Below are positions 14,364-29,507 of a DNA stretch of 36,426 bases, one piece after another. Positions within the stretch are counted from its first letter, which is position 1; each line of letters opens with the position of its first letter. Source of the DNA: a virus; IMG/VR virus record IMGVR_UViG_3300031963_000455, positions 1 through 36,426 of that record; one strand, written 5' to 3'. The translations under genes and the position numbers were made by a program. The notes beneath the pieces were generated by a model. It worked only from the letters and a program-made list of their open reading frames with translations. It was not told the origin of the DNA and searched no databases.

Positions 14364-14398
14364 CTCTCTCAGCAGTGCATACGCGCTGCCTGACTTCG
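14364..14398 (+). promoter_or_regulatory. R-box 1 (conserved block ending at start codon)
   Basis: This is the first copy of the recurrent block CTCTCTCAGCAGTGCAT followed by ACGCGCTGCCTGACTTCG. It ends at the base before the ATG at 14399. There is no Shine-Dalgarno sequence and no TATAAT-like hexamer inside it. Candidate phage promoter or RNA element. Confidence 0.6.
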
Positions 14399-14569
14399 AT
14401 GACCACCACCACCAAGACCCGCTACTTCGCGGTTGCCATCACCTCCGCCGGTGAATTCATCCCCTTCGGCCCGGGCTTCCCCTCCGAGGACGACGCCTGG
14501 CGCTGGCTGCACTACGACGCAGCGCTCTTCCCCGAGCACAAATCGATCGATGTCTTTCCGATCGCCTGA
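14399..14569 (+). CDS. Small hypothetical protein, first gene of the accessory array
   Basis: The ATG at 14399 gives 56 residues, MTTTTKTRYFAVAITSAGEF onward. I chose it over the upstream in-frame ATG because the conserved R-box ends exactly at 14398, as it does before the next two genes. The product is a compact acidic/aromatic protein (Phe, Pro, Trp, Asp-rich) without Cys or membrane segments. It forms a monocistronic unit, with an R-box before it and a terminator directly after. Function unknown. Confidence 0.75.
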   Translation: MTTTTKTRYFAVAITSAGEFIPFGPGFPSEDDAWRWLHYDAALFPEHKSIDVFPIA

Positions 14570-14575
14570 CCACTT

Positions 14576-14608
14576 GCCCTCACTCGCATCCGCGGGTGGG
14601 GGCTTTTT
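14576..14608 (+). terminator. Rho-independent terminator T1
   Basis: A GC-rich stem (GCCCTCACTCG pairing with CGGGTGGGGGC, two G-U pairs) is followed by TTTTT. It sits seven bases after the stop of the 56-residue gene. Confidence 0.85.
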
Positions 14609-14615
14609 GCGTGAA

Positions 14616-14650
14616 CTCTCTCAGCAGTGCATGCGCGCTGCCTGACTTCG
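14616..14650 (+). promoter_or_regulatory. R-box 2
   Basis: Copy of the conserved block differing from R-box 1 by one base. It starts eight bases after the T run of T1 and ends directly before the ATG at 14651. Confidence 0.65.
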
Positions 14651-14839
14651 ATGCGCAATCCCTTCCTCGCCATCGCCGCCGGTACCTCCATCGGCTTTCT
14701 CCTGGTCGGCGTCTTCCATGCCGGCGTTGCCCGGCTTGATCGCGCCACCCGTGATCAATGCGCCACCCAAGACTGGCCGGCTCACAAGCACGCAGCTCAC
14801 TCCGAGTTCTGCCGCACCTACATGGTCAAGGCTTTCTGA
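14651..14839 (+). CDS. Small single-pass membrane or secreted protein
   Basis: This protein has 62 residues. It starts at the ATG that directly follows R-box 2. Residues about 5-27 are hydrophobic (FLAIAAGTSIGFLLVGVF), a signal anchor or signal peptide. A His/Asp/Cys-bearing tail follows, with two Cys residues (CATQDW and FCRTY) that could form a disulfide if exported. It is monocistronic: terminator T2 follows seven bases after the stop. Function unknown; envelope location is likely. Confidence 0.75.
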   Translation: MRNPFLAIAAGTSIGFLLVGVFHAGVARLDRATRDQCATQDWPAHKHAAHSEFCRTYMVKAF

Positions 14840-14845
14840 TTCCCT

Positions 14846-14880
14846 GCCCTCACTCCGTTTGCTCGGGGTGGGGGCTTTTT
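14846..14880 (+). terminator. Rho-independent terminator T2
   Basis: The stem GCCCTCACTCCG / CGGGGTGGGGGC is followed by TTTTT. Same design as T1. Confidence 0.85.
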
Positions 14881-14887
14881 CATCGCC

Positions 14888-14921
14888 CTCTCTCAGCAGT
14901 GCATGCGCGCTGCTTGCTTCG
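14888..14921 (+). promoter_or_regulatory. R-box 3
   Basis: Conserved block with the 3' part changed to GCTGCTTGCTTCG. It still ends directly before the ATG at 14922. It lies seven bases after T2. Confidence 0.65.
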
Positions 14922-15119
14922 ATGAACACCTACGGCTGGATCGGCTACATCCTTGGCTCGGTCGGCGGACTCGCTCTCGGCTGCCTCCTCTACGGCGGCA
15001 TCGGCTATCTCCTCTTCGGCACAGGCGGGCTCATAGGCGGCTGCGGCGCAGCAGTCGGCTTTGCCCTCTACGGCCTGGGCCACATCAACCCCTTCAGGAC
15101 CCCGGAACTTTTCCGCTAG
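14922..15119 (+). CDS. Small glycine-rich two-helix membrane protein
   Basis: This 65-residue protein has two hydrophobic Gly-rich segments (about residues 6-30 and 33-55, including GGLIGGCGAAVGFALYGLG) and a short polar C-terminal tail. Size and topology resemble small holins or glycine-zipper membrane proteins, but it is not near the endolysin and no family is recognised. The ATG directly after R-box 3 fixes the start. Terminator T3 follows, so it forms its own transcription unit. Confidence 0.75.
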   Translation: MNTYGWIGYILGSVGGLALGCLLYGGIGYLLFGTGGLIGGCGAAVGFALYGLGHINPFRTPELFR

Positions 15120-15142
15120 CACCCCTCCAAATTCCGCCTCCT

Positions 15143-15176
15143 GCCCTCGCTCGTTTTCACGGGTGGGGGCTTTTTT
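15143..15176 (+). terminator. Rho-independent terminator T3
   Basis: The stem GCCCTCGCTCG / CGGGTGGGGGC has a TTTTCA loop and is followed by TTTTTT. Confidence 0.85.
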
Positions 15177-15182
15177 ATTGCC

Positions 15183-15214
15183 CTCTTTCAGCAGTGCATC
15201 CGCGCTGACTGACT
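15183..15214 (+). promoter_or_regulatory. R-box 4
   Basis: Conserved block (CTCTTTCAGCAGTGCATCCGCGCTGACTGACTG). Unlike copies 1-3 it is separated from its start codon by a structured leader of about 45 bases. Confidence 0.6.
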
Positions 15215-15220
15215 GACGGC

Positions 15221-15258
15221 ATGTGGTTCTTTCGCCCCGGGGCACCCGGGTTACCACC
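15221..15258 (+). promoter_or_regulatory. Structured leader A (GGTTCTTTCGC box plus CCCGGG hairpin)
   Basis: The leader has a GTGGTTCTTTCGC block, then a hairpin CCCGGG-GCA-CCCGGG (15236-15250), then ACCACC directly before the ATG at 15259. The leader of the 168-residue gene downstream has the same order with a different sixth base pair. Confidence 0.55.
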
Positions 15259-15531
15259 ATGACGGAAGGCAAGCTCTACCGTCTCAGCCAGCAACTCCGC
15301 CTCCTGGCACGCGCTGGCGTCACCCTCACCGAGGACGGCCGCAAGCTGCACGGCGAGATCTCTCAGGAGATCGAAGTCGCGCGCGCTCACCTCGAGGCCA
15401 TGATCGATCAGGTCATGGACGGCCACCCCCTCGGCGATCTCCAGCGCCGGCACATCGCCTGGTGCCAGCAGATTGCTGAGCTCAACCGCCCAGCAATACA
15501 TCAGCTCGAGCTGGAGGTTTGCCCCTTCTGA
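15259..15531 (+). CDS. Small helical hypothetical protein
   Basis: This 90-residue protein begins MTEGKLYRLSQQLRLLARAG. It is mostly amphipathic helix with many Leu, Gln, His and Glu, and a single Cys near the end (VCPF). The ATG at 15259 is preferred to upstream in-frame codons because the shared leader ends here. It is monocistronic between R-box 4 and T4. No domain recognised; a helical oligomer or nucleic-acid-associated protein is possible but unproven. Confidence 0.75.
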   Translation: MTEGKLYRLSQQLRLLARAGVTLTEDGRKLHGEISQEIEVARAHLEAMIDQVMDGHPLGDLQRRHIAWCQQIAELNRPAIHQLELEVCPF

Positions 15532-15550
15532 GCTCGAGCGCGCTTCACTT

Positions 15551-15584
15551 GCCCTCACTCGCTGTTGCGGGTGGGGGCTTTTTT
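15551..15584 (+). terminator. Rho-independent terminator T4
   Basis: The stem GCCCTCACTCGC / GCGGGTGGGGGC is followed by TTTTTT. Confidence 0.85.
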
Positions 15585-15589
15585 ATTGC

Positions 15590-15624
15590 CTCTCTTCAGC
15601 AGTGCATTGGCGCTGCCTGATTCG
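15590..15624 (+). promoter_or_regulatory. R-box 5
   Basis: Conserved block CTCTCTTCAGCAGTGCATTGGCGCTGCCTGATTCG, six bases after T4, followed by a structured leader. Confidence 0.6.
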
Positions 15625-15628
15625 AGGC

Positions 15629-15664
15629 GTGGTTCTTTCGCCCCGGCACCGCCGGGAACACCAC
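15629..15664 (+). promoter_or_regulatory. Structured leader B (GGTTCTTTCGC box plus CCCGGC/GCCGGG hairpin)
   Basis: The same GTGGTTCTTTCGC block as leader A is followed by a hairpin CCCGGC-ACC-GCCGGG (15642-15656) and AACACCAC before the ATG at 15665. The innermost pair is C-G here and G-C in leader A, so pairing is kept while sequence differs. Confidence 0.55.
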
Positions 15665-16171
15665 ATGGCTACCGCCACCAAGGCCGACCTCGAAGCTCGC
15701 ATCTCCGAGCTCGAAACCCAACTCGCTGCCTCCAGCGGAGATCCCAAAGCGGCTGGCATGGTCCGACTCGTCGGCATGCTCAAAGCCGTGAAGGACATCT
15801 CCCGTCCGGACGGCGGCAAGCTCACGGTCTCGGCCATCCTCACCAACTCCACTCGCGACAACCGCGGTGGCAAGGAGGTGAACGTCGATCTGCCCATCGA
15901 CTCGATCATCGCCACCGACAACGGTGTGCCCATCGCCAGCGAGATCCTCTCGATTGCGAACAACACCGAATGGGCCAGGGTCGCCATCAGCGGCTACTGG
16001 ACCGTCTACGGCGAGATCACCCGCAACGACCGCGGCTACCCCGTCGCCTACCGCAGACAACTCCGCGCTCAGCGCATCGAGGTCCTCAACTCGGCCCCCG
16101 TCGGGCCTGAGTTCGCCCAACCCGAGGCACCCTTCTCGGCTGAACCCACCGGCGAGGAAGTTCCCTTCTGA
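15665..16171 (+). CDS. Candidate single-stranded DNA-binding protein (SSB-like tail)
   Basis: This 168-residue protein has an N-terminal helix with Glu/Leu heptads (residues about 6-24). A beta-rich core of about 100 residues follows (about 45-145), with alternating strands such as KLTVSAILT and WARVAISGYWTVYGEI, compatible with an OB fold. An acidic, Pro-rich C-terminal tail ends TGEEVPF. Bacterial SSB proteins end in an acidic tail with a terminal Pro-Phe (DDDIPF type) that recruits repair and replication enzymes, so this ending is suggestive. Length also fits. The beta core is not clearly homologous by eye, so the call is an inference. Own R-box, leader and terminator. Confidence 0.5.
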   Translation: MATATKADLEARISELETQLAASSGDPKAAGMVRLVGMLKAVKDISRPDGGKLTVSAILTNSTRDNRGGKEVNVDLPIDSIIATDNGVPIASEILSIANNTEWARVAISGYWTVYGEITRNDRGYPVAYRRQLRAQRIEVLNSAPVGPEFAQPEAPFSAEPTGEEVPF

Positions 16172-16194
16172 GCTCGGACGCTTCAGCCCCTCTC

Positions 16195-16229
16195 GCCCCA
16201 CTCGCCTTTGCGGGTGGGGCTTTTCTTTT
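16195..16229 (+). terminator. Rho-independent terminator T5
   Basis: The stem GCCCCACTCGC / GCGGGTGGGGC is followed by TTTTCTTTT. Located 23 bases after the SSB-like gene. Confidence 0.85.
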
Positions 16230-16249
16230 GCGCAACACGCTCATCTGTC

Positions 16250-16423
16250 ATGACCCTCCAGATCACGCTCACCCCAGCAGAAGCCATCGCCCTGCGCGAC
16301 GCTCTTGCGCTCTCCAGCAGGGCAGCGGACTACGACTTCACCCTGGATCCACTCTGGAGCCAGGTCGGTGATTACATCTATGACCAATGCCAGCAGGGGC
16401 TCCTGCCTGGCGACGTCTTCTAA
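16250..16423 (+). CDS. Small hypothetical protein
   Basis: This 57-residue protein begins MTLQITLTPAEAIALRDALA. It is acidic, with one beta strand followed by a helix and a Tyr/Asp/Trp-rich end. It begins 20 bases after terminator T5 without an R-box, so either an unrecognised promoter or readthrough serves it. Terminator T6 follows. No family recognised. Confidence 0.7.
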   Translation: MTLQITLTPAEAIALRDALALSSRAADYDFTLDPLWSQVGDYIYDQCQQGLLPGDVF

Positions 16424-16438
16424 GTACCTAACCATTTA

Positions 16439-16468
16439 CCTCGCTCGGTCTCCCGTGCGGGGTTTTTT
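16439..16468 (+). terminator. Rho-independent terminator T6
   Basis: The stem CCTCGC / GCGGGG has an inner loop and is followed by TTTTTT. It is weaker than T1-T5 but correctly placed. Confidence 0.7.
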
Positions 16469-16474
16469 AGTGCG

Positions 16475-16509
16475 CCTCTGCAGCCGTGCATGGGGCGCAC
16501 CTTCCTTCG
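16475..16509 (+). promoter_or_regulatory. R-box 6 (diverged)
   Basis: CCTCTGCAGCCGTGCATGGGGCGCACCTTCCTTCG keeps the CAGCNGTGCAT core and the final CTTCG. It lies just after T6 and before a TTCTTTCGCA box and an ATG. Confidence 0.5.
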
Positions 16510-16525
16510 TTCTTTCGCACCTGCC

Positions 16526-16798
16526 ATGCGCAACACCCTGATCACCATCGCGGCCTGGACCGCAGCAATAGCCATCACCCTCTGGCAACGCCTCCTCTGG
16601 CCCGGCCTCAGGAACTTCCTTCCTGGCATCGAGGATCTCTTCTCGCCTGTACGGACAGAAGCCGTACAAATCGAGCCCCTGGTCCTCGAGCCCGCACCCG
16701 CCACTCCGCTCGAGACTGTCGTCATCGAACGCAGCAAACCGGCTCGCCCGCAGCGCGTCACCCGCCATAAGCCCGCCGCTGCTGGCTTTGCCTCCTAA
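16526..16798 (+). CDS. Small membrane-anchored hypothetical protein
   Basis: This 90-residue protein has a hydrophobic N-terminal segment (residues about 4-27, with two Trp) acting as signal anchor. A Pro/Glu-rich linker and a basic Arg/Lys/His-rich C-terminus (KPARPQRVTRHKPAA) follow. The start is the ATG after the TTCTTTCGCACCTGCC leader; an upstream in-frame ATG lies inside the R-box and is less likely. The basic tail might contact membrane or nucleic acid. No family recognised. Confidence 0.7.
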   Translation: MRNTLITIAAWTAAIAITLWQRLLWPGLRNFLPGIEDLFSPVRTEAVQIEPLVLEPAPATPLETVVIERSKPARPQRVTRHKPAAAGFAS

Positions 16799-16833
16799 TC
16801 CTTCTCTTACTGCAATCCATTCTCAATAAGCAC

Positions 16834-17067
16834 ATGGTTCTCACTCAGTACTGCCCCGATCGCCGCGTTCGCCTCTCGGTGCGCGGCACTCCCGATCAGC
16901 TGGAGCCCATCGGCCTCATCCTCGAGCAGCTCTTCCCCGGCGAAGTCATCGTCACCTCCGACGAAGACGACGACGCAGAGCTCAGCGACGAGCAGATCGA
17001 GGTCCTGGAGGCCATCTACGAGCGCACCCTCGAGGAGCGCTACGCCTGGCCTGCTCCCACCTGCTGA
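16834..17067 (+). CDS. Small acidic hypothetical protein
   Basis: This 77-residue protein starts with basic residues (MVLTQYCPDRRVRLSVRG) and has a strongly acidic centre (TSDEDDDAELSDEQ) and a charged helix. Acidic small phage proteins sometimes mimic DNA or inhibit host factors, but nothing here shows that. It starts 35 bases after the membrane protein gene. Terminator T7 follows. Confidence 0.72.
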   Translation: MVLTQYCPDRRVRLSVRGTPDQLEPIGLILEQLFPGEVIVTSDEDDDAELSDEQIEVLEAIYERTLEERYAWPAPTC

Positions 17068-17073
17068 TCCCAA

Positions 17074-17110
17074 GCCCTGTCTGGCATCTGCCGGCAGGGC
17101 TCTCTCTTTT
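17074..17110 (+). terminator. Rho-independent terminator T7
   Basis: The stem GCCCTG / CAGGGC, with an inner CTGGC/GCCGG-type pairing, is followed by a TCTCTCTTTT pyrimidine run. Confidence 0.75.
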
Positions 17111-17131
17111 GCACGCCCAGTGCATCACCCC
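17101..17131 (+). promoter_or_regulatory. R-box-like element 7 (diverged)
   Basis: A CTCTCTTTTGCACGCCCAGTGCATCACCCC stretch keeps CTCT and CAGTGCAT and ends exactly before the ATG at 17132. It overlaps the T run of T7. Confidence 0.4.
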
Positions 17132-17416
17132 ATGCAAACCCGCATCTTCCGCGTCCACTCCGACCCAGGCCACGCTTGGGTCAAAGTCCCCAAAACCTTC
17201 CTCGCCAGAATCATTGGCGAGCACTGGCGCTCAGTCTTCACTCCGTTCTCCTACGAACGCGGCGAGTACGTCTACCTCGAAGAAGACGAAGACGCCTCTC
17301 GCTTCGTGCATTGGTGCCGCACCAATTCCATCGAGCCCGTCTTCAAGGGCGCCAGCACGGGCGCAGCAACTAGATACTCCCGCATCCGCAACTACAAGCC
17401 CCTATCGCCTCTCTGA
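17132..17416 (+). CDS. Conserved-type small phage protein (SDPGHAWVKV family)
   Basis: This 94-residue protein contains HSDPGHAWVKVPKTFL, a central YERGEYVYLEEDEDASRF block and an RIRNYKPL end. From memory, this order (Asp-Pro-Gly-His-Ala/Gly-Trp, then a Tyr-Leu-Glu-Glu-Asp block, then an Arg-Ser/Asn-Tyr end) occurs in small uncharacterised proteins of many phages and plasmids. I chose ATG 17132 because the R-box-like block ends there; 17120 is the alternative. Function unknown. Confidence 0.78.
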   Translation: MQTRIFRVHSDPGHAWVKVPKTFLARIIGEHWRSVFTPFSYERGEYVYLEEDEDASRFVHWCRTNSIEPVFKGASTGAATRYSRIRNYKPLSPL

Positions 17417-17419
17417 CCC

Positions 17420-17674
17420 ATGACCCATCGCATCACCATCGAATACGAGGTCACCACCTCATTCCAGCTCACAGTCGAGCGCGACGAGATCCCCAAAGAT
17501 CACGCGCTACTACTCGAGTCCGTTACCAGGGACGAGCTAGCCAGCCCCTGGATCGCAGTAGCTGAGATCGAGTGGGGACACATCAAGGAAGCCTGGCGCT
17601 CAGCAACACCTGACAACACCTGGGCCTACGACGAAAACAACGACCCCATCTACCCCTGCCCTGAACACTTCTAA
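17420..17674 (+). CDS. Hypothetical protein
   Basis: This 84-residue acidic protein begins with alternating beta-strand residues (THRITIEYEVTTSFQLTVE), then has a charged middle and a Trp/Tyr/Pro-rich end. It follows the previous gene by three bases and leads the next by two, so it is probably co-translated with them. No Shine-Dalgarno sequence. Not recognised. Confidence 0.75.
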   Translation: MTHRITIEYEVTTSFQLTVERDEIPKDHALLLESVTRDELASPWIAVAEIEWGHIKEAWRSATPDNTWAYDENNDPIYPCPEHF

Positions 17675-17676
17675 CC

Positions 17677-18132
17677 ATGGCCAATAACTACGAAATAGGC
17701 GCCACTCGCGTCCCGGCCGACTGCTTCGCTCCGGGCGGAGTCGAGGCGGCCGTCCTGATCAACGGCGAACTCCAAGATATCCTCGACCAGGAGGATCGTC
17801 CAGCCGAGTTCGACGACTTCTACGCTGGCTGCCTCGATCTCGAGATGGGCGGCGACGGCTCGCTTTACATCTCAAGCGGCGATGAGTACTTCTGCTCGCT
17901 CAGCTTCGAGTACGTGATCGAGAAGCTCGCCGAACGCAAGCTCATCCTTAAGAGCTTTGGCCTGTCAGTCGCTTACTACTGCAGCAAGCTCAGACCCGAC
18001 GAACACGGCGGCGTCTACTACCGAGCCATGCCCAGCGGCGAGGTGCTCTGCATCAGCACTCAGCTCGATGACCTAACCGACGAACAACTGCAATCCCTTT
18101 GCGACCTTCGCTCACACCCTGGACGTACGTGA
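17677..18132 (+). CDS. Hypothetical protein
   Basis: This 151-residue acidic protein is rich in Asp, Glu, Tyr and Leu, with six Cys scattered through it (for example ADCFAPGG, YYCSKL, VLCIST). It looks like a compact alpha/beta protein without membrane segments. It is packed between neighbours with gaps of two and three bases, indicating one operon running from 17132 to 19051. No known domain identified. Confidence 0.78.
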   Translation: MANNYEIGATRVPADCFAPGGVEAAVLINGELQDILDQEDRPAEFDDFYAGCLDLEMGGDGSLYISSGDEYFCSLSFEYVIEKLAERKLILKSFGLSVAYYCSKLRPDEHGGVYYRAMPSGEVLCISTQLDDLTDEQLQSLCDLRSHPGRT

Positions 18133-18135
18133 ACT

Positions 18136-18351
18136 ATGACCAACACCAACTGCCTGCGTGGCATTCAGTGCCCCGACTGCAAATCCGATAGCCCCTTCGT
18201 AGTCACCGTCGAGACCAACGTCATCATGCACGACGACGGCTGGATCGAAACCACAGGTGACAACGACTCCTGGGGCGATTGGTCCTTCATCCGCTGTGAC
18301 GCCTGCGATCACCACGGCATCGTCTCTGAATTCCGCTCTAGCAATCAATGA
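18136..18351 (+). CDS. Small zinc-ribbon protein
   Basis: This 71-residue protein has two Cys pairs, CPDC (residues about 12-15) and CDAC (about 55-58), separated by a strand-rich acidic insert. This is the pattern of a zinc ribbon that binds one zinc ion. Such small phage ribbons can bind DNA, RNA or host proteins; no partner is evident. The stop overlaps the next start (ATGA at 18348). Confidence 0.78.
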   Translation: MTNTNCLRGIQCPDCKSDSPFVVTVETNVIMHDDGWIETTGDNDSWGDWSFIRCDACDHHGIVSEFRSSNQ

Positions 18352-18539
18352 CCTTCAACGTCACCGCAGTTGAAGCTACGCAAACCCTTATCTACTCGCC
18401 CGATTCCTACCTCGAATACTGCGCTGAGTACGACACCGAGCCCACCGAGCCAGGCTTTCTCGCCTTCATCGAAGCCGACGTCAACGACGATTTTGGCGGC
18501 TTCGAGGGCGAGCTCGTCATTCACCGTCAACCTGCCTAA
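18348..18539 (+). CDS. Small acidic hypothetical protein
   Basis: This 63-residue, strongly acidic protein (many Asp, Glu, Tyr) starts MTFNVTAVEATQTLIYSPDS. It overlaps the zinc-ribbon gene by four bases and is followed after three bases by the next gene. No family recognised. Confidence 0.72.
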   Translation: MTFNVTAVEATQTLIYSPDSYLEYCAEYDTEPTEPGFLAFIEADVNDDFGGFEGELVIHRQPA

Positions 18540-18542
18540 CTC

Positions 18543-18869
18543 ATGAACACCTCCAACCTCCACCCCCTCGCAGTCCTGGGCCCAGCCGACCACGCCAGTG
18601 GATCTCTGGCTGGTTACTGCCGCACAAACTACGCCACCTTGATCGCCCTTCTCGGCGAACCGCATGAGCGCGACATCGACGGCAAAGTCAATGTCGAATG
18701 GGCCTTCCGCTGCAAGGACGGCACCACATTCCATATCTATGACTGGAAAGAGCCGTCCATCCCACGCGAGGACTACTGGTGGCATATCGGCGGCAACAAC
18801 GCCCAGGCACTCAAAGCCTTCTCTCGCCACACCGGACTCCCTGTTAGCCGCGACACCTCCCTCCTATGA
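18543..18869 (+). CDS. Conserved-type hypothetical protein (GEP...EW...YDWK...WHIGG)
   Basis: This 108-residue protein has the ordered blocks LLGEPHE, VNVEWAF, GTTFHIYDWK and YWWHIGG. From memory, this pattern recurs in small proteins of phages and mobile elements whose function is not established. The fold is probably alpha/beta with a central sheet. The stop overlaps the next start by four bases. No catalytic residues can be assigned. Confidence 0.78.
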   Translation: MNTSNLHPLAVLGPADHASGSLAGYCRTNYATLIALLGEPHERDIDGKVNVEWAFRCKDGTTFHIYDWKEPSIPREDYWWHIGGNNAQALKAFSRHTGLPVSRDTSLL

Positions 18870-19051
18870 CCACGACCCACGTCGACGACAAGCCCCTCGA
18901 GCGCCGCTTCATTGTCGGCACCCTGGCCCTCGACTCCAACCTCGACCTAGCAGCAGAAGCCCGCGTCCTGCTTGCAGTCGAGGATTCAGTCAGCGACTGC
19001 GCCAAGCTCACCGCCGACTTCCGGCGCATGATGGGCCCAGTTATCGACTAG
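18866..19051 (+). CDS. Small hypothetical protein
   Basis: This 61-residue protein is coupled to the previous gene by an ATGA overlap. It has a basic/acidic N-terminus, a Leu/Ala-rich strand-helix centre (RFIVGTLALDSNLDLAAEAR) and a C-terminal helix. It is the last plus-strand gene before a minus-strand island. Not recognised. Confidence 0.7.
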   Translation: MTTTHVDDKPLERRFIVGTLALDSNLDLAAEARVLLAVEDSVSDCAKLTADFRRMMGPVID

Positions 19052-19105
19052 GCGCCGAACGCTACTTCCGGCTGGTAACCACCGCTAGCCGTGAAGTGCG
19101 GCTCA

Positions 19106-19252
19106 CTATTCTCTGGTGCCATCGGATTGCTCGGCCATAGAGGGCCAACAGCGTTCGAGAGCCGCAATCCGTTCAACGAACCATTGCTCAATCCACGCTG
19201 TATGTCCATCGATCCCAACCCAAGCCGGGCACCGGCAAGCATCGGAAAGTCG
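19106..19252 (-). pseudogene. In-frame continuation after a stop codon (probable disrupted gene, 3' part)
   Basis: On the minus strand, directly after the TAA at 19253-19255 and in the same frame, 48 further codons read as protein-like sequence. It begins RLSDACRCPAWVGIDGHTAW, then has a Glu/Arg/Trp-rich amphipathic helix, and ends at TAG 19106-19108. There is no ATG, GTG or TTG start before residue 39 of this part, so it cannot easily be a separate gene. It looks like the second half of one small protein interrupted by a nonsense codon, or read by suppression. A sequencing error is also possible. Confidence 0.45.
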
Positions 19253-19393
19253 TTATCCATGGCTTTTCAGCTTGCAAAGGCGAACGGCTTCATCAGCCAT
19301 CAAGTAATACGACGTCCGGGTCTTACCAGCAGCTTCTAAAGCCGCCTTGACCCGGACCCACACAGCACACTCCCAGCGCTGCGGATCTTCCAC
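19253..19393 (-). CDS. Small protein, GTG start, coupled to the virion-type gene (5' part of interrupted frame)
   Basis: This is a 46-residue frame from a GTG at 19393, two bases after the stop of the upstream minus-strand gene (TGA-c-GTG). The sequence includes a Trp/Val/Lys-rich helix and KTRTSYYLMADEAVRLCKL. It resembles a helical DNA-binding or small regulatory protein but is too short to classify. The same frame continues past its TAA for 48 more codons, so the original protein may have been about 95 residues. Confidence 0.6.
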   Translation of the reverse strand: MEDPQRWECAVWVRVKAALEAAGKTRTSYYLMADEAVRLCKLKSHG

Positions 19394-19394
19394 G

Positions 19395-19886
19395 TCAAGC
19401 GAGAGGCTGTTCGCGCTCTTGCTCGGACTGCTGACCTTGCTGCAGGTATTCCATCAGGGCCATCAGGCCTTGACCTGCTGCAGTGAGGCCGGCAGTAGCG
19501 CCACCAGCGGCAGCACCGTAAAACGCGACTTGGCCAGCACGATCCGCAGTGCTTTCACCGGACAGCATGCGCTGCAGGTTGTACAGCGGATTGCGGGCAG
19601 CCTCGCGATCAGCCGTCGCCTGGAGCATCGCACCGCTATTCGGTGCAAACACTTCCTGCGACACGGCGCCTCGTTCACCTCGCAGCACTCGCTCGAGGTC
19701 GCTGAGCCCGCCTTCTGATACACCGAAGCGCTCGCCAACACGCTTGGCTGCGCTAGCAGGGCTGGACTGAATCTGACTCTTCAGGTCGTCCATGACGGCC
19801 TGGCGGCGAGCAGCCAATTGGCCCTCAGCCTGCTGGGCCATGTAGCCCCGGATTCGCTCATCCAGGTTGCGCACACCGCTAAACAT
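19395..19886 (-). CDS. Virion-type protein on a minus-strand island
   Basis: This 163-residue protein begins MFSGVRNLDERIRGYMAQQA. It has a long charged, Gln/Arg/Glu-rich helical region (residues about 8-100), then a Gly/Ala-rich hydrophobic segment (about 117-145, including GAAAGGATAGLTAAGQGLMAL), then a Gln/Glu tail. This is the same architecture as the left-arm internal virion proteins, yet it lies 6 kb away inside the accessory array on the opposite strand. It may be a relocated virion or ejection protein. No promoter is obvious. Confidence 0.78.
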   Translation of the reverse strand: MFSGVRNLDERIRGYMAQQAEGQLAARRQAVMDDLKSQIQSSPASAAKRVGERFGVSEGGLSDLERVLRGERGAVSQEVFAPNSGAMLQATADREAARNPLYNLQRMLSGESTADRAGQVAFYGAAAGGATAGLTAAGQGLMALMEYLQQGQQSEQEREQPLA

Positions 19887-19937
19887 CGCGGAACGATTCG
19901 TACTGCGTTGTTTGCATTCTACTTGCTTGTTTTTGCC

Positions 19938-19971
19938 CTCTTACAGCAGTGCATGTAAGGGGCTTGCTTCG
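19938..19971 (+). promoter_or_regulatory. R-box 8 (diverged 3' half)
   Basis: CTCTTACAGCAGTGCATGTAAGGGGCTTGCTTCG keeps the CTCT, CAGCAGTGCAT and CTTCG parts. It follows a short TTGTTTTTG run and precedes a TTTCGCA box and the ATG at 19994. Confidence 0.6.
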
Positions 19972-19993
19972 TTTCGCACTTTCGCAATCCACC

Positions 19994-20380
19994 ATGGAAC
20001 TCAACCTCGGCCCTATCTCCGCTCGCCTCTACTCCGGCAGCAACTGGACCCACGCCGAACTGGCTTGGGTCTCTAACCGCAACGGCGGCATGGCTCGCCG
20101 GGAGACGGCAATCAACGCCGGCTTCAAGTCCGATCACATCACCGATATGGTCGGCCGCGATAACCCTGCCGACACCTTCGAGGATCCGGCAACCGGCACC
20201 CTCTACTTCGGCAAGATCGTTTCCTCGCCCACCGGCGTCTATGCGATCTCGGCCAAGGAGGTCTACACCAAGACCCTCTACACCAAGGCGGTGAAGCACG
20301 GCCTGGCCGCTGCTGAAACCGCAACCGAGGCCGTCGCTGCCGCACCTGCCGCGGAACTCCAGCAGATCACGGTCGCCTGA
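19994..20380 (+). CDS. Hypothetical protein with Ala-rich tail
   Basis: This 128-residue protein is Gly/Asn/Thr-rich and beta-like in residues 1-90, with several Tyr and one Trp. An Ala/Glu/Thr-rich C-terminal tail ends ITVA. The start follows the R-box and the CACTTTCGCAATCCACC leader. A strong hairpin terminator follows the stop. No domain is recognised. It is transcribed away from the minus-strand virion-type gene, with 107 bases between them. Confidence 0.75.
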   Translation: MELNLGPISARLYSGSNWTHAELAWVSNRNGGMARRETAINAGFKSDHITDMVGRDNPADTFEDPATGTLYFGKIVSSPTGVYAISAKEVYTKTLYTKAVKHGLAAAETATEAVAAAPAAELQQITVA

Positions 20381-20387
20381 CCTAGTC

Positions 20388-20426
20388 GCCCCGGTGTGCA
20401 TTCCGCACGCCGGGGCTTCCCTTTCT
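20388..20426 (+). terminator. Terminator T8
   Basis: The stem GCCCCGGTGTGC / GCACGCCGGGGC is followed by TTCCCTTTCT. The stem is strong; the T run is interrupted by Cs. Confidence 0.7.
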
Positions 20427-20465
20427 GGAATTTCCGGCCACAATGCGCAAGCCACGGCACTCAGC

Positions 20466-20678
20466 ATGCCAGATGCCATTGATCAAAGCCTGCTTCCGCT
20501 GGTTCGCCTCCGCGATGCGACTGCAGAGCTGCTTTCAGAAGCCCAGCGCGCCCTCAAGGCTGGCTGCGCCTCCCAAGACCGTCGCTCTGTCCAGACGATC
20601 AAGCGGCAACTGGCGTCCTTTGACCGCCAACTCAAACGCTCTCGGCAAGCGCTATCTGCTGCGACGCGCCGCGACTAA
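20466..20678 (+). CDS. Small helical hypothetical protein
   Basis: This 70-residue protein is a single long amphipathic helix pattern rich in Leu, Arg, Gln and Ala, ending in a basic tail (SRQALSAATRRD). It could form a coiled coil. It starts at the ATG at 20466; the frame is open further upstream but through the terminator region. A second gene overlaps its 3' end in another frame. Confidence 0.65.
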   Translation: MPDAIDQSLLPLVRLRDATAELLSEAQRALKAGCASQDRRSVQTIKRQLASFDRQLKRSRQALSAATRRD

Positions 20679-21642: not shown

Positions 21643-21673
21643 CTCCCGCTTCTTCCTTTCGCAACCACCACCA

Positions 21674-22738: not shown

Positions 22739-22745
22739 TCCCACC

Positions 22746-22952: not shown

Positions 22953-22953
22953 T

Positions 22954-23259: not shown

Positions 23260-23276
23260 CCCTGTTCTCTAGCCTC

Positions 23277-23567: not shown

Positions 23568-23578
23568 ATCCAATCCCC

Positions 23579-23908: not shown

Positions 23909-23914
23909 TTCGCT

Positions 23915-24559: not shown

Positions 24560-24560
24560 G

Positions 24561-24806
24561 ATGATCCAGACCCCGATGAACCTCCAGCAAATCACCGCTG
24601 CCGTTGATGCCGGCCGCACCGTCCACTGGCAGAACGGCAGCTACATCGTTCGCAAAGGGCCCAGCCATCCCGACAATCCTGGCAATGGCTGTAACCCCGC
24701 CCTGCGCTACACCATCGACCACGCCGGCGGGAGCTCCATCGGCCTCACCTGGCGCGATGGCGTCACCCTCAACGGCAAGGAGTGCGACTTCTACGCGCTC
24801 GACTAG
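24561..24806 (+). CDS. Conserved-type small protein (VHW...GLTW..GVTLNG..DFY)
   Basis: This 81-residue protein carries GRTVHWQNGSYIV, then IGLTWRDGVTLNGKECDFY near the end. From memory, small uncharacterised phage and plasmid proteins share this ending of Gly-Leu-Thr-Trp, Asp-Gly, Leu-Asn-Gly, Asp-Phe-(Phe/Tyr). The fold is probably beta. Its stop overlaps the stop end of the convergent Dps-like gene by four bases. Function unknown. Confidence 0.76.
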   Translation: MIQTPMNLQQITAAVDAGRTVHWQNGSYIVRKGPSHPDNPGNGCNPALRYTIDHAGGSSIGLTWRDGVTLNGKECDFYALD

Positions 24807-25288: not shown

Positions 25289-25346
25289 CAGGAGCGCCTG
25301 TTCGTGCTGCACGAATCCATCCACTAGCCGTCTACACAGTCTATTG

Positions 25347-25380
25347 CGCCCCTGCCTGATCCTCAGGTGGGGGCATTTTT
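25347..25380 (+). terminator. Terminator T9
   Basis: The stem GCCCCTGCCTGA / TCAGGTGGGGGC is followed by ATTTTT. On the plus strand it would stop transcription running antisense to the Dps-like gene before the next R-box. Confidence 0.8.
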
Positions 25381-25383
25381 GTG

Positions 25384-25420
25384 CACTCATTCAGCGGTGC
25401 ATTGCAGTTACCTGACTTCG
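25384..25420 (+). promoter_or_regulatory. R-box 9 (diverged middle)
   Basis: CACTCATTCAGCGGTGCATTGCAGTTACCTGACTTCG keeps the CAGCNGTGCAT core and CTGACTTCG end. It stops one base before the ATG at 25422. Confidence 0.6.
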
Positions 25421-25421
25421 T

Positions 25422-26039
25422 ATGAGTTCTCTTGCCCCAACTGAAGATGCCTTCTTGCTTGATGACTGCGACGATCCCGTTGCCGCCGCAATCACCAAGC
25501 GCCCGCCCGAGCCGAAGTTCTTTCGCTTCGGGATCAACCAGGTCGGCCAGCTCTATGAGTACGGCGAGTCACACGCCCAACCCAAGCGCGTCCTCGATGG
25601 CACCGGCGATGGCCTGACCTTCCTCGGTGTCCATGACATCCGCGCCTGTGAGCGCGCTGGCGACCGCCGCAAGCTCTACCTCGACGTCACCATCGGCTCG
25701 CCTCACCCCTACCACCTGTTCGTGCTGTCGCTGCCGGTCTTCAACTCCAATCCGGACCGCAGCTCCTGGCCAGTACGCACCCTGCTGGGCTCGCTTGCTG
25801 TGGCTGACAGAATGCTTGACATGCGTGCCATGGCAGGCACAATCTGTGCGCGGCGGGGCACCAAGCCCAACGCCTACGGCCATGTCGCCAACTTCATCGA
25901 CCTGTTCGTTCACAGCGACCCAGCCGGTGAGGCCCAGGCCCGTATTGCCTCAGATGCCATTGATCCTGATCGCCACACCCTGGAGGTCACGGTTGATCGC
26001 CTGCGTCGCTCCCTCGACCTTGAGCCCCAGTTCCAGTGA
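25422..26039 (+). CDS. Hypothetical protein, first gene of the DUF932 operon
   Basis: This 205-residue protein has an acidic N-terminus (LLDDCDDP). A beta-rich centre follows (YLDVTIGSPHPYHLFVLSLP), then a helical and acidic C-terminal region. The ATG is one base after R-box 9. The downstream gene starts with a GTG overlapping this stop (GTGA), and a DUF932 gene follows, so the three probably act together. It is not recognised as a known family. Compositional features suggest a soluble protein. Confidence 0.78.
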   Translation: MSSLAPTEDAFLLDDCDDPVAAAITKRPPEPKFFRFGINQVGQLYEYGESHAQPKRVLDGTGDGLTFLGVHDIRACERAGDRRKLYLDVTIGSPHPYHLFVLSLPVFNSNPDRSSWPVRTLLGSLAVADRMLDMRAMAGTICARRGTKPNAYGHVANFIDLFVHSDPAGEAQARIASDAIDPDRHTLEVTVDRLRRSLDLEPQFQ

Positions 26040-26629
26040 CCTCCAGTCCCGAAATCCCGGACAGCATCTCATCTGAGATGCTCAATACCTTGCTGCGTGG
26101 GCGCAATCCGCTGCCCATCAGCGAGGTGGTCCCTGCTCTGGATTTCGGCGGCGAGCTCGGAGCGCCTTGTGACCTGCAGTTTTCAATCTGCCAGCTGATC
26201 GAGCGCTCCACTGGCGGCACCAACATCATCCAGATGCTGGTCGCTGCCATGCACCTGCTCACCGAGGTCGAGGCCCACTTCGAGCGGCACATGAACTCCC
26301 TCGCTTTAGAAGACGAGCCGTACAACACCCTCTCAGCTCCTGAACAGCAGACGCTGGCTCGGGTGATGCGAGAGCACACCCTGCTTCTCAAGGCCAGCCT
26401 CAAGCACCTCGAAGAGGTCCTCACGCAGGTTGGCTACCCCTACTACGCCCAGCGTGCGCAAGAGCTCATCAACGATCGCTTCCAGCAGAAGCGTGTCTTG
26501 ATGCGCGATTTCCGTAGCCAGCTCCTGATCTCCGATGAGCTTCTGGCCTCACTCGGAATCGAGCGCTCTGCGGTCACAACTTATCTCGACCAAATCACAG
26601 ATCACCCAAACGACACTTCAGAACTATGA
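26036..26629 (+). CDS. Helical hypothetical protein, middle gene of the DUF932 operon
   Basis: This 197-residue protein uses a GTG start that overlaps the previous stop. It is almost wholly helical, with long Leu/Glu/His/Gln-rich stretches (residues about 65-165) that look like a helical bundle or coiled coil. Its stop overlaps the start of the DUF932 gene (ATGA at 26626). No motif identifies its role; tight coupling suggests a complex with its neighbours. Confidence 0.78.
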   Translation: MTSSPEIPDSISSEMLNTLLRGRNPLPISEVVPALDFGGELGAPCDLQFSICQLIERSTGGTNIIQMLVAAMHLLTEVEAHFERHMNSLALEDEPYNTLSAPEQQTLARVMREHTLLLKASLKHLEEVLTQVGYPYYAQRAQELINDRFQQKRVLMRDFRSQLLISDELLASLGIERSAVTTYLDQITDHPNDTSEL

Positions 26630-27645
26630 CCACCGCCACTCAAACTCAACCCCAAACCCAAACCAGCAAGCTCTCCAAGGCTGACCAGAAACTCTTCAAG
26701 GGCACCGCCGCCGAGGTCCACAGCTGGATGAGCGATCAGGAAATCCTCGCCTCGATCGGCTGCAACTTCAACGTCATCCGCACCCCAGCCACCAGCCCCT
26801 ACGGCCGCACCTACAGCGACTGCCAGCTCTGGCTGCGCGATGACAACCAGGACCTGCTCGGCTTCTTTGGTACTAAGCGCCAGATCATCCAGCCCTCGCT
26901 GTTCATCGACTACTTCCGCGCCTTCTGCGACGCCTCCGATAAAGCCATCTCCCTTGATGTCGTCGGCTCCTACAACAAAGGCCGCAGCATCTACATGGCT
27001 GCCAAGCTCAACGGCAACAACGGCGCTCTTGTCGCAGCCGGTGGCGGCCTTGAGATCAGCCGCCAAGGGCATTCCGCCTACATCAGCGCAGAAGATCGCA
27101 CCGATCACTGGTTGGTACTGAGCGAATCCTTCGGTGAAGCCCTGCGCCCTCGCGTCTCGGTGATCGCCAACGAGCTGGTCTGCGCCAACGGGATGGCCCG
27201 CAAGGTGACCGAATGCCAGGTCAAGCTCAGCCATACCCAAGCGATGAGCAAGGACATTGTTCACGCCGTACTCGATCACGCCGTTCGCCAATGCCAGGCG
27301 TACGACCGCATGAAGGAGCGCCTGATTGAGACCCCCGTCTCAATGGAGACCGCCGCTGCTGCCCTGCACCAGTACTTCGGCAATGAGCAAGGCACCGGCC
27401 GGCTCGCCCAGCGACTCGAGCAGATCTACCGCCACGAGCTGATCGGCAGTGAGCTCGATACCCGTGGTGCCAACGCCTGGCGCCTGGCATCTGCTGTCAC
27501 GCAGTACACCAGTCACGAGCGCATCGGCAACAGCGAGGCCGTCTTCCGCTCCCAGCTGGAAGGCGCCCGGGCCCGCACCGCTTCTGGCTTCATCGATTTC
27601 CTCGAGTCGCAGTTCACAGAGCAGCGCGAACCCGTCCACGCCTGA
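26626..27645 (+). CDS. DUF932 / phage-plasmid-like protein
   Basis: This 339-residue protein is the expected size of DUF932 (TIGR03299) proteins found in phages and plasmids. A Gln/Thr linker opens the protein. A beta-rich region follows with YGRTYSDCQLWLRDD, GGGLEISRQGHS, and then ALRPRVSVIANELVCANGM, matching the family order of a Arg-x-x-(Val/Ile)-x-Asn-x-x-(Val/Ile)-C-x-Asn block. The C-terminal part is helical with conserved-looking His and Asn residues. The family is common near recombination or replication genes, but biochemical function is unknown. It ends the operon, before terminator T10. Confidence 0.82.
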   Translation: MTTATQTQPQTQTSKLSKADQKLFKGTAAEVHSWMSDQEILASIGCNFNVIRTPATSPYGRTYSDCQLWLRDDNQDLLGFFGTKRQIIQPSLFIDYFRAFCDASDKAISLDVVGSYNKGRSIYMAAKLNGNNGALVAAGGGLEISRQGHSAYISAEDRTDHWLVLSESFGEALRPRVSVIANELVCANGMARKVTECQVKLSHTQAMSKDIVHAVLDHAVRQCQAYDRMKERLIETPVSMETAAAALHQYFGNEQGTGRLAQRLEQIYRHELIGSELDTRGANAWRLASAVTQYTSHERIGNSEAVFRSQLEGARARTASGFIDFLESQFTEQREPVHA

Positions 27646-27654
27646 TCCCACCAC

Positions 27655-27690
27655 GCCGCCTCGCGTTCGGGGCGGCTCCCTTTCTTTCGC
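27655..27690 (+). terminator. Terminator T10
   Basis: The stem GCCGCC / GGCGGC with loop TCGCGTTCGG is followed by TCCCTTTCTTT. Placed ten bases after the DUF932 stop. Confidence 0.7.
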
Positions 27691-27695
27691 AGCTC

Positions 27696-27890
27696 ATGCT
27701 CACTATCACCCAACTCAGTCCCGCTCAGCAGCAGCGCTTCCTCGATTGCGCTGCTGAGAAAAACATTCCCGTCGACGTCCTCCTTGAGGACTTCTGCCTC
27801 GATCCCTACATGCCAGGAGCCATCACCGGAACCCTGCCTTGGTGCGGGCTCTTCGGCCTGGTGGAAGCCGATGGACGCTCACACACCTGA
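27696..27890 (+). CDS. Small hypothetical protein
   Basis: This 64-residue protein begins MLTITQLSPAQQQRFLDCAA. It is preceded by the TTTCTTTCGCAGCTC leader seen before other starts, directly after a terminator and without an R-box. Leu/Pro/Cys-rich centre with two further Cys. No domain recognised. Confidence 0.65.
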   Translation: MLTITQLSPAQQQRFLDCAAEKNIPVDVLLEDFCLDPYMPGAITGTLPWCGLFGLVEADGRSHT

Positions 27891-27894
27891 TGCC

Positions 27895-28104
27895 ATGACG
27901 ACCCGCCGCGCCATTACCGATTCCGACATCCACGAGTACACCACCTATGTCGCCAAGCTTGCCGCCATTACCACCCCAGGCGATCCGCCGCCGATTCGCT
28001 TCCGCACGCGTTTCCTCTGGACCCACGGCACGTTGCCGCAAGACGACCTCATCCACGACCAGAACGCAGCGCTCTTCCTCCGGAACCAAGCGCCGGCTGC
28101 TTGA
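27895..28104 (+). CDS. Small hypothetical protein
   Basis: This 69-residue protein starts MTTRRAITDSDIHEYTTYVA, four bases after the previous stop. It has a charged N-terminal helix and a Pro/Arg/Leu-rich centre. The 3' half overlaps a second reading frame encoding a hydrophobic peptide. Function unknown. Confidence 0.65.
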   Translation: MTTRRAITDSDIHEYTTYVAKLAAITTPGDPPPIRFRTRFLWTHGTLPQDDLIHDQNAALFLRNQAPAA

Positions 28105-28210
28105 ACTTGCTGTTCTGCTCGCCAGCGCTCTGATCCTTGCTTCCTCGCCGTGGCCCCAGCAGCAATCTCTGCAAGGGCGCTACGCCACAGGGCTTGAGAC
28201 CGGGCCTTGA
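27947..28210 (+). CDS. Possible small membrane protein in an overlapping frame, start uncertain
   Basis: The last 45 residues of this frame read as a short basic region and a hydrophobic helix (LLELAVLLASALILASSPW), then a polar tail ending at the TGA at 28210. This looks like a signal-anchor peptide. The frame's only ATG (27947) lies inside the upstream gene, so the true start is unresolved. Low confidence. Confidence 0.4.
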   Translation: MSPSLPPLPPQAIRRRFASARVSSGPTARCRKTTSSTTRTQRSSSGTKRRLLELAVLLASALILASSPWPQQQSLQGRYATGLETGP

Positions 28211-28399
28211 TCAGGTGATCTCGCCGCCCTCCAGCACACCCCAGCTACCGGGGCGGCCGGAACACTCGTATCGCACACCCCTGTACACACATGAACCGCC
28301 ATACAGGCCATCGGCCTGCATCTGACGGCGGCGCACCACGCGCTCGAATTCGCGCTCCAGCGACAAACGCCGGAACATGTCCAGATTCAACGGCTCCAT
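28211..28399 (-). CDS. Small basic protein on minus strand
   Basis: This 62-residue protein begins MEPLNLDMFRRLSLEREFER, a strongly basic and acidic helix. An Arg-rich segment follows, then a short beta-like part (GGSCVYRGVRYECSG) with two Cys. The YRGVRYE motif resembles the Tyr-Arg-Gly-Val-x-Tyr core of small DUF4278-like cyanobacterial proteins, though this is only a visual resemblance. It is a single-gene minus-strand island between plus genes. Function unknown. Confidence 0.6.
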   Translation of the reverse strand: MEPLNLDMFRRLSLEREFERVVRRRQMQADGLYGGSCVYRGVRYECSGRPGSWGVLEGGEIT

Positions 28400-28505
28400 C
28401 GGATCTCCACCGATTAAGTGTCAGAAACTGACGTCCCCGTCGTCTGGCGTCAGCATCTGCAACCCCGAAGGGTCCGACGATTTGACCCAATTCTAGAAAC
28501 TGCTC

Positions 28506-28718
28506 GTGCTCTACCTCACTCCGCTCTTCAAGGCCAAGCGTCGTATTGAACGTCTTGCTTCTGTGTCCCGTCAACTTACGGAAACCAGCAAGCGTTATCC
28601 CTGGTTAGCGATTCCCTTGCTGCCGCCGCACCTTGTGGTGCGCTGGCTCTCGCGGCGTGAATACGAGCGGCTGAGCAACCTGGGCTATCCGCTCACCCGC
28701 AAACGAGCCCGAGTCTGA
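28506..28718 (+). CDS. Small basic hypothetical protein (GTG start)
   Basis: This 70-residue protein starts at a GTG. It is rich in Arg, Leu and Pro, with WLAIPLLPPHLVVRWL in the middle and a basic end RKRARV. The hydrophobic core flanked by basic residues could be a peripheral membrane or nucleic-acid binding protein. It lies 13 bases before a zinc-ribbon gene. Not recognised. Confidence 0.6.
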   Translation: MLYLTPLFKAKRRIERLASVSRQLTETSKRYPWLAIPLLPPHLVVRWLSRREYERLSNLGYPLTRKRARV

Positions 28719-28730
28719 GATCAAACACCG

Positions 28731-29123
28731 ATGGCCATGCGTTGCCGTGCCTGCAACTCCAGGCAAACACGCGTCTCCAGCACTGATGTTTACGACGACC
28801 ATCAGCGCCGCTACATCCGCTGCCTGGATTGCGGTAGCCAGTTCATCACGATCGAGCGCTACAGCAAACCCAAGCCAGGGCCCAAGCCAGGCTCTACCCG
28901 GCGGAACCTCAACTACGGCCTCAAAGGAGAGACCAATCCCCGGTCAATCCTTACTGACTCAGACATCTACGCCATTCGTCAGGCCTACGACCAAGGCCTG
29001 ACCTACAGCCAAGTCAAAGCACGATTCGGTATCGCCTCTAGCCACTACTACCGAATCGGTAAACGCATCACCTGGACTCACTTACCAGAGCGCTCCTGTC
29101 ATGACCGTCGATCTGCTGCCTGA
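28731..29123 (+). CDS. Zinc-ribbon plus helix-turn-helix-like protein
   Basis: This 130-residue protein has CRAC at residues 5-8 and CLDC at 31-34, forming an NrdR-type N-terminal zinc ribbon with the following YIRC-x-x-C-G-x-x-F strand. A Pro/Gly/Lys linker follows. The C-terminal part (about 66-115) reads GETNPRSILTDSDIYAIRQA and FGIASSHYYRIGKRITW, resembling the DNA-binding helix-turn-helix attached to phage HNH nucleases. No HNH motif is seen. A DNA-binding regulator is the best reading; confident only about the zinc ribbon. Confidence 0.7.
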   Translation: MAMRCRACNSRQTRVSSTDVYDDHQRRYIRCLDCGSQFITIERYSKPKPGPKPGSTRRNLNYGLKGETNPRSILTDSDIYAIRQAYDQGLTYSQVKARFGIASSHYYRIGKRITWTHLPERSCHDRRSAA

Positions 29124-29361
29124 TCAAACCCTCAAGATCCTGCTGCCCAGCGGCGGCGAGCTTCTGCTCTCGAACCGCGATGGGGCGACGCGCATTGAGC
29201 ACTGGCAGGGGCACTCCTTATCCACTTTCCTGACTCTTCATGTACTCCCCGATCCCGAACAACAACAACAACAACAACAAGTACAACTACAACAGCAACT
29301 CGAAGCGCATCACGATCGTGCTGCACAAGGCGTTGTTTGCCCGACTTCAAGACCGATCTGA
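29101..29361 (+). CDS. Small protein with poly-Gln tract
   Basis: This 86-residue protein has an N-terminal half that reads well as a protein (MTVDLLPDQTLKILLPSGGE and a later Leu/His-rich strand). The second half contains a run of Gln encoded by a CAA repeat and then an unusual tail. It overlaps both the preceding zinc-ribbon gene and the following ribbon-helix-helix gene in other frames. The C-terminal part may be incidental to the overlap. Confidence 0.5.
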   Translation: MTVDLLPDQTLKILLPSGGELLLSNRDGATRIEHWQGHSLSTFLTLHVLPDPEQQQQQQQVQLQQQLEAHHDRAAQGVVCPTSRPI

Positions 29362-29437
29362 TTACGAAGGACGCTCCATGTCCAACCTCTGCGCCTACCT
29401 ACTGGAGCGTGCCATGTCCGATCCAGAAAACCCCTAA
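29240..29437 (+). CDS. Ribbon-helix-helix (CopG/Arc-like) DNA-binding protein
   Basis: This 65-residue protein starts with an Asn-rich stretch (the CAA/AAC repeat read in this frame). It then has the RHH order: basic strand KRITIVLHKALFARL, a turn, and a helix RSMSNLCAYLLERAM. RHH proteins are dimeric repressors of phages and plasmids that bind operators through the strand. It precedes a terminator, so it is the last gene of a small operon. Confidence 0.75.
   Translation: MYSPIPNNNNNNNKYNYNSNSKRITIVLHKALFARLQDRSDYEGRSMSNLCAYLLERAMSDPENP
29258..29280. repeat. AAC/CAA trinucleotide repeat, dual coding
   Basis: About 23 bases of uninterrupted AAC repeats are followed by a few degenerate units. 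They encode Asn in the RHH gene frame and Gln in the overlapping frame. Such runs are prone to length change by slippage. Confidence 0.85.
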
Positions 29438-29451
29438 TCAAAGACACCCTG

Positions 29452-29484
29452 AAGGCCGTCTCGCATCACGCGGGGCGGCCTTTC
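29452..29484 (+). terminator. Terminator T11
   Basis: The stem AAGGCCG / CGGCCTT is followed by TC. It lies after the RHH gene and before a diverged R-box. Confidence 0.65.
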
Positions 29485-29492
29485 TGCATGCA

Positions 29493-29507
29493 CCTCTACA
29501 CCTGTGC
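29493..29507 (+). promoter_or_regulatory. R-box-like element 10 (short)
   Basis: CCTCTACACCTGTGC keeps a CTCT part and a GTGCAT-like core that runs into the ATG at 29508. It follows T11. The match is weak. Confidence 0.3.

Follow-up and report, generated by a model that had tools for sequence, protein, structure and literature searches.

Short sequences repeated at the starts of non-structural genes are known from cluster K mycobacteriophages, whose start-associated sequences (SAS) and extended start-associated sequences (ESAS) are the nearest described kind that we found. SAS (GGGATAGGAGCCC) is a short asymmetric site that heads some of the non-structural genes. Each genome has 11-19 copies, almost all of which point the same way, and their usual position, 3-9 bp from the start codon, takes in the ribosome-binding site. 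Inverted repeats lie beside about half of the sites, ESAS is conserved per gene family and in Adephagia combines inverted repeats with SigA-like -35/-10 hexamers, and the function of SAS is described as ill-defined (PMC3203893, PMC12699233, PMC11373665). Here we describe the R-box, a repeated element in the IMG/VR virus record IMGVR_UViG_3300031963_000455, all 36,426 bases of which form the window analysed, and found it to be a real, conserved, start-associated element of a cyanophage-like lineage. Like SAS and ESAS, it is a repeated asymmetric site at gene starts in one orientation. It is unlike SAS in sequence, its consensus holding neither GGGATAGGAGCCC nor a ribosome-binding sequence; unlike ESAS in that no SigA-like hexamers 17-18 bp apart occur in the scanned region 13900-20500 (the boxes at 25392 and 29499 lie outside the scan); and unlike both in standing mostly behind terminators and heading single-gene cassettes. 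Inverted repeats accompany about half of SAS sites; in the R-box, pairing arms were found in the groups at 19938 and 16475, and the remaining copies (37 of 48), analysed jointly, showed none.

The core, CAGCNGTGCAT, occurs in the window eight times on the forward strand and never on the reverse, and a reversed-pattern control gave no match. At one mismatch or fewer, the two strands together gave 12 matches where shuffles averaged 4.33, and none of 100 shuffles reached 12; three of the matches (6109, 9318 and 9959) lie outside the array region and are chance-like. A profile trained on other records, the close relatives G002 and G003 still among them, detected at ≥8 bits nine forward sites in the window (the eight exact cores and 29499) and no reverse site, the best reverse score being 3.2. 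The copies, all on the plus strand, begin with the five-member array that the first-pass annotation had placed correctly: R-box 1 (14359..14398, core 14370-14380), R-box 2 (14611..14650, core 14622-14632), R-box 3 (14883..14921, core 14894-14904), R-box 4 (15178..15215, core 15189-15199) and R-box 5 (15586..15622, core 15597-15607). The diverged copies that it listed at 16475, 19938 and 25384 are also present, as R-box 6 (16470..16509, core 16481-16491), R-box 7 (19935..19982, core 19944-19954) and R-box 8 (25381..25421, core 25392-25402), and its possible copy at 29493 is a core with one mismatch at 29499 (R-box 9, diverged; 29487..29510, core 29499-29509). The copy suggested at 17101 is recognisable by eye as a short decayed TGCAC..GTGCAT (17110..17125, before gene 17132-17416) and falls below the profile threshold.

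We further surveyed related phages. Among 263 phage records that matched the window's terminase, Synechococcus phage S-EIV1 ranked first, at 51% identity, and by this gene it is the nearest isolate. A terminase alignment yielded the best 80 of 582 loci. Six records were sampled through one protein search and five more through the DNA pattern and a second protein, and a third protein search contributed no further records. G001 is a near-identical copy of the window; besides it, the core recurs in 11 related IMG/VR records. Exact cores numbered 7, 8, 8, 7, 6 and 3 in G001 to G006 (reversed-pattern control 0) and 6, 12, 12, 6 and 3 in G007 to G011 (reversed-pattern control 3 in all). One of the three in G011 lies on the opposite strand, and one each in G003, G008 and G010 resembles a chance gene-interior match. 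G012 holds 16 matches to the core pattern with final Y, one of them reverse. It is the only one with more than one match among 25 further records scanned, four of which gave any; absence from the others is weak evidence, as the early region may be missing from many of them, which are marine or short. At least 10 records were found by the gene 15665-16171, all of them box-bearing, and the exact core was not found in S-EIV1. Over 12 records the profile gave, at ≥8 bits, 98 forward matches, a few of the weaker ones inside genes, against three reverse (one each in G005, G011 and S-EIV1), which runs counter to the first-pass concern that such a profile might match random positions as often as gene starts. 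Rfam at its gathering score returned no R-box match in the window, five relatives' loci or part of S-EIV1, and no report of the element was found in the open-licence listings searched. The R-box marks a cyanophage-like freshwater lineage related to S-EIV1 and known here only from metagenome records; one genome scan for occurrence in hosts gave a single, non-cyanobacterial locus.

The anatomy of the element was read from 42 non-redundant copies (of 75), in which the core letters were fixed by the search itself and the flanks were free. Dropped before the counts were the plus-strand interior matches G003 60301, G008 50925 and G010 32206 and the minus-strand match G011 36824; G001 was excluded from this set onward, and G004 29331 and G012 82640 from later sets. 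Positions -18 to -13 are T-rich, T stands at -10 in 40 of 42 copies and G at -9 in 42 of 42, so that a near-invariant TG lies 9-10 nt upstream of the core; C follows at -6 in 39 copies, with mostly pyrimidines at -5 to -2. Downstream, a CTYCG box is found 11-14 nt past the core in 28 copies and farther away in two, and is absent in 12. The block of about 35 bases in the first-pass annotation is therefore real but longer than described, given the TG upstream and the CTYCG box downstream. The start codon adjoins CTTCG in 16 of the 42 copies. The earlier statement that the block ends at or near the next ATG holds in four window units, with the start 17-19 nt past the core, but not in others, where the distance is 34-59 nt. 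In the gene family of 29508 the ATG lies inside the box in the five genomes examined (G000, G002, G003, G005 and G011); the N-terminus M[FY].R...V..RL is conserved and the core is diverged in four of the five. The start codon of the GP88 homologue of G011 is likewise inside its box. A peptide read from RTG through the core was considered and rejected: the variable position alters the residue and the wobble positions are fixed, so by eye the stretch is probably not coding.

The boxes are interleaved with intrinsic terminators. In the region 13900-20500, both strands, 20 terminator-like sites were found against 3.9 expected. Across six genomes, some of them closely related, 40 of 54 boxes stand within 45 nt behind a predicted plus-strand terminator, and 40 of 116 such terminators precede a box. 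By eye, the boxes that lack one include those that open an array and the one preceded by a divergent gene. Nearly every copy had been said to follow a terminator; by script this is so for six of the eight exact window copies, while by eye those at 14364 and 19938 are exceptions. In the window, all on the plus strand, R-box 1 is first in the array, has no terminator directly upstream and is followed by gene 14399-14569 and a terminator at 14576..14603 (12 pairs). R-box 2 heads gene 14651-14839 (terminator 14846..14875, 12 pairs), R-box 3 gene 14922-15119 (predicted terminator 15143..15170), R-box 4, with a 59-nt leader, gene 15259-15531 (predicted terminator 15551..15578) and R-box 5 gene 15665-16171 (terminator 16195..16220); the next gene (16249) has by eye a decayed box only. 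R-box 6 precedes gene 16526-16798, R-box 7 gene 19994-20380 with a terminator at 20388..20416 (12 pairs), R-box 8, behind a terminator-like hairpin seen by eye at ~25348-25374, gene 25422-26039, and R-box 9 gene 29508-29753, whose start codon lies inside it. When the first genes behind boxes were grouped into families, orders such as F02 F03 F04 F05 F06 differed by single units, families F01, F09, F10, F12-F14, F16, F18 and F19 were gained or lost, and in G011 F04 precedes F02. Single-gene cassettes of R-box, gene and intrinsic terminator are thus gained and lost between phages. Morons of tailed phages are likewise inserted single genes that bring a terminator and an expression signal of their own; unlike these, the R-box cassettes stand in tandem arrays that share one element, with no visible sigma-70 promoter.

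We then examined pairing between the arms that flank the core. For the position at 19938, an alignment of seven distinct rows (six orthologues and the copy G005 26943) revealed a 10-pair stem around the core, with window arms at 19935-19944 and 19955-19963. In this stem 90% of cells are paired and six of the 10 pairs have changed on both sides (0 of 500 shuffles reached either value), slid versions reach at most 56%, and G-U occurs in 10 of 63 paired cells, as expected of RNA. Exchanging arms between copies (82, reduced to 48 non-redundant) lowered pairing, the native value being -11.58 and that of the swaps -9.66 (sd 0.31; 0 of 20000), and a second set of 48 gave z scores of -4.9 and -5.9 (0 of 20000 each). 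Arm pairing is also present in the group at 16475 (window arms 16470-16478 and 16492-16500). A third fold form, CATGCAC...GTGCATG with the start codon inside, occurs in the 29508 family, including the inverted repeat of R-box 9. In class A copies, those whose start adjoins CTTCG, a different hairpin uses the core as its 5' arm, and its full 6-bp helix is found in 17 of 48 copies. Class A cells changed on both sides number 8, against 4.4 in shuffles (16 of 500); six of them are at the outermost pair, and the double changes include one pair at which A-U has become C-G and G-C. A general helix between RTGNNC and GTGCAT found no support in G011, where several cores read GTGCAC and the upstream part lacks a matching change. 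Pairing of the core with ribosomal RNA was also rejected: with E. coli as a stand-in for a cyanobacterium, matches were at most 5 nt in 16S and 7 nt in 23S, against shuffled means of 6.25 and 6.52.

These observations lead us to favour, with a probability of about 0.45, the reading that the R-box is a transcribed leader element, recognised in trans, that controls each early cassette. It would act in cis in the mRNA, at whose 5' end it would stand in every single-gene cassette of the early or middle period; a putative trans-acting factor, of phage or host, would recognise the nearly invariant RTGNNCYYYYNCAGCNGTGCAT in the leader, and this recognition would control how the cassette in question is expressed, with translation initiation as the most likely step. 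The reading draws on the box-to-start spacing, which is 16-21 nt in 48 of the 95 units scored (each related genome counted separately), on the gene family whose start codon lies within the box and on the hairpin at conserved positions, and the lack of sigma-70-like promoters in 13900-20500 (0 at strict consensus) was counted for it. Since the arms that pair extend to 9-11 nt before the core, transcription at those positions would have to begin upstream of the box. A constant sequence with differing folds may be read as a sequence recognised in leader RNA, with hairpins presenting or hiding it. What the sequences show is the element itself, its rule of strand and position, its conservation, the hairpin at 19938, the arm pairing carried by the 16475 group and the gain and loss of cassettes; RNA action of every copy, a trans factor, control at translation and early or middle timing of the genes are inferred.

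Several results weigh against it. Without the 19938 orthologues, the arm-swap z falls to -1.93 in the near window (565 of 20000) and -3.35 in the wide one (9 of 20000); when the 16475 group and two similar copies are also removed, the remaining 37 of 48 show no pairing (z +1.45 and -0.77), and a control window (-30..-18 versus +1..+14) itself reached z -2.4 (181 of 20000). The copies whose start adjoins CTTCG (16 of 42) show no arm pairing, and their alternative hairpin has no clear excess of paired cells (76.5% against 75.6% shuffled, reached by 56 of 500). The rows of its alignment A2 were moreover hand-picked, 15 named units and four gene types having been dropped after viewing, which biases the result in favour of the class A structure. 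Core accessibility is below that of shuffles in class A and the same as in shuffles in class B. The start codons used for scoring the box-to-start spacing were chosen by script and are wrong in some units. The R-box sequence is far better conserved than any single fold, so a DNA-binding protein or a promoter suits it too, and a reader of duplex DNA is possible.

The first-pass annotation had offered a promoter or an RNA element. The family, its single strand and its position at gene starts hold, and of the two proposals the RNA element has gained evidence and the phage-polymerase promoter has lost some; the RNA reading fits better, on uneven evidence, and how the R-box works is unproven. A phage-specific promoter, at which a factor-modified host polymerase or another polymerase would start within or just after the block and give short-leader mRNAs, seems rather unlikely to us. 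It would suit the linear sequence conserved at fixed spacing (T at -10, G at -9, CTYCG), the place of most boxes just behind a predicted terminator and the moron-like look of cassettes with private signals, and no other promoter was seen on either strand of 13900-20500. The compensatory arms at 19938, however, extend upstream of the core, one gene family starts inside its box, and in the 16 of 42 copies whose start codon adjoins CTTCG no room is left for it as a -10. Sigma-70 region 4 was absent from eight related records (controls detected 14 of 14), and the T7-type RNA polymerase domain PF00940 was unmatched in the same number, but its controls gave no signal either. Two candidate polymerases were dismissed: the 870-aa product of gene 10980-13592 had no significant match in PDB sequences, PHROGs or Pfam, and the best PHROG matches of a 1846-aa G002 protein, considered as a virion polymerase, were families of tail fibres, of head decoration and of unknown function. 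The motif CATTCTA, which precedes the 19938 box by 22-25 nt, resembled a rightward -10 and was rejected as such, as it coincides with the called start codon of a divergent leftward gene in G004, G008 and G009. A bidirectional promoter may lie there, and the strand skew of TAGAAT (6 versus 65) seems by eye to arise partly from coding sequence repeated across relatives.

In an antitermination relay, the box in nascent RNA would load a nut/put-like complex on host polymerase, which would then read through the cassette terminator and be re-armed at the next box. This accounts for the alternation of box, gene, terminator and box, and internal terminators combined with antitermination are a known design in conjugation operons (PMC8955417). 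The -10 to -1 stretch also resembles E. coli rrnB boxA (TGCTCTTTAA), which scores 4.87 on the R-box profile, a value reached by 0.43% of random 10-mers, and is the best site in its 200-nt leader; the match is post hoc and modest next to the median R-box copy (8.89), and the boxA-like stretch is paired at 19938. HK022 put is similarly a phage leader RNA with hairpins in early transcripts, yet it spans ~70 nt, has two stem-loops and occurs once behind PL and once behind PR, whereas the R-box is shorter and repeated per gene. Because put persists at terminators ≥10 kb away (PMC9378689), a need for as many as 15 reloading sites in one genome would be surprising. The relay also leaves the start-codon spacing unexplained, and we regard it as distinctly improbable. 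The same low odds apply to the R-boxes being reiterated processive-antitermination or reinitiation RNA signals, each cassette with its own re-arming element and terminator; if true, single-gene modules could be inserted or lost anywhere in the early operon with the rest still transcribed. A role as DNA operators or stoperators, through which a phage repressor binding asymmetric sites would block prophage transcription, appears least probable. L5 stoperators are likewise short, asymmetric, intergenic, oriented with transcription and many per genome, but they are known repressor DNA sites (PMC9283540), whereas R-boxes sit at gene starts and at one position covary in the manner of RNA. A large serine recombinase in G002 (L064:13537-15144:+), with homologues at 37% identity in G008 and G012 and a fragment match in G003, suggests that some members of the lineage are temperate and was counted for this role; the compensatory changes and G-U pairs at 19938 would go unexplained.

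Other features of these genomes were also recorded. Leftward genes of the window include the terminase and a virion structural protein, and small rightward genes run from 14.4 kb on; none of 10 box-headed window genes matched PHROGs, and none of nine matched Pfam. A second leader element, TTCTTTCGCC with a GC hairpin of varying stem, precedes the start codons of two cassette genes; by predicted fold, this second hairpin lies between box and start in 15 of the 18 distinct leaders compared from the two families. In the window, folds of this sort lie on the plus strand at 15236..15250, between R-box 4 and its start (CCCGGGGCACCCGGG type, stem letters varying among relatives), and at 15642..15656, between R-box 5 and its start codon. 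The protein of gene 15665-16171 has by eye an acidic, SSB-like tail whose last residue is F (three of the four homologues aligned end in PF) and no significant match in PDB sequences. Short GGTACA repeats, possibly iterons, lie upstream of the array (window 13849-13868; G010 ~67460-67500). A Glutamine-II riboswitch was detected on the minus strand at 28428-28482 (RF01704, 33.9 bits, gathering 33); a TAGAAT hexamer immediately precedes it and an ORF of 62 aa follows. The marine relative G030 carries at 38901-39300 direct repeats AAGCGACCTAC beside terminator-like sequences, perhaps an analogous system of other sequence. Intergenic sequences in the early region of S-EIV1 (L016, 39000-44500) resemble structured RNA by eye, for example CCTGGG...GTCCCAGG, present twice; this locus had no Rfam match at the gathering score.

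Together, these findings would add to SAS and ESAS another example, unrelated to them in sequence, of elements repeated at gene starts in the early arms of phages, in this case linked to modular cassettes of one gene. The R-box makes testable how phages express consecutive genes when every one of them ends in its own terminator.

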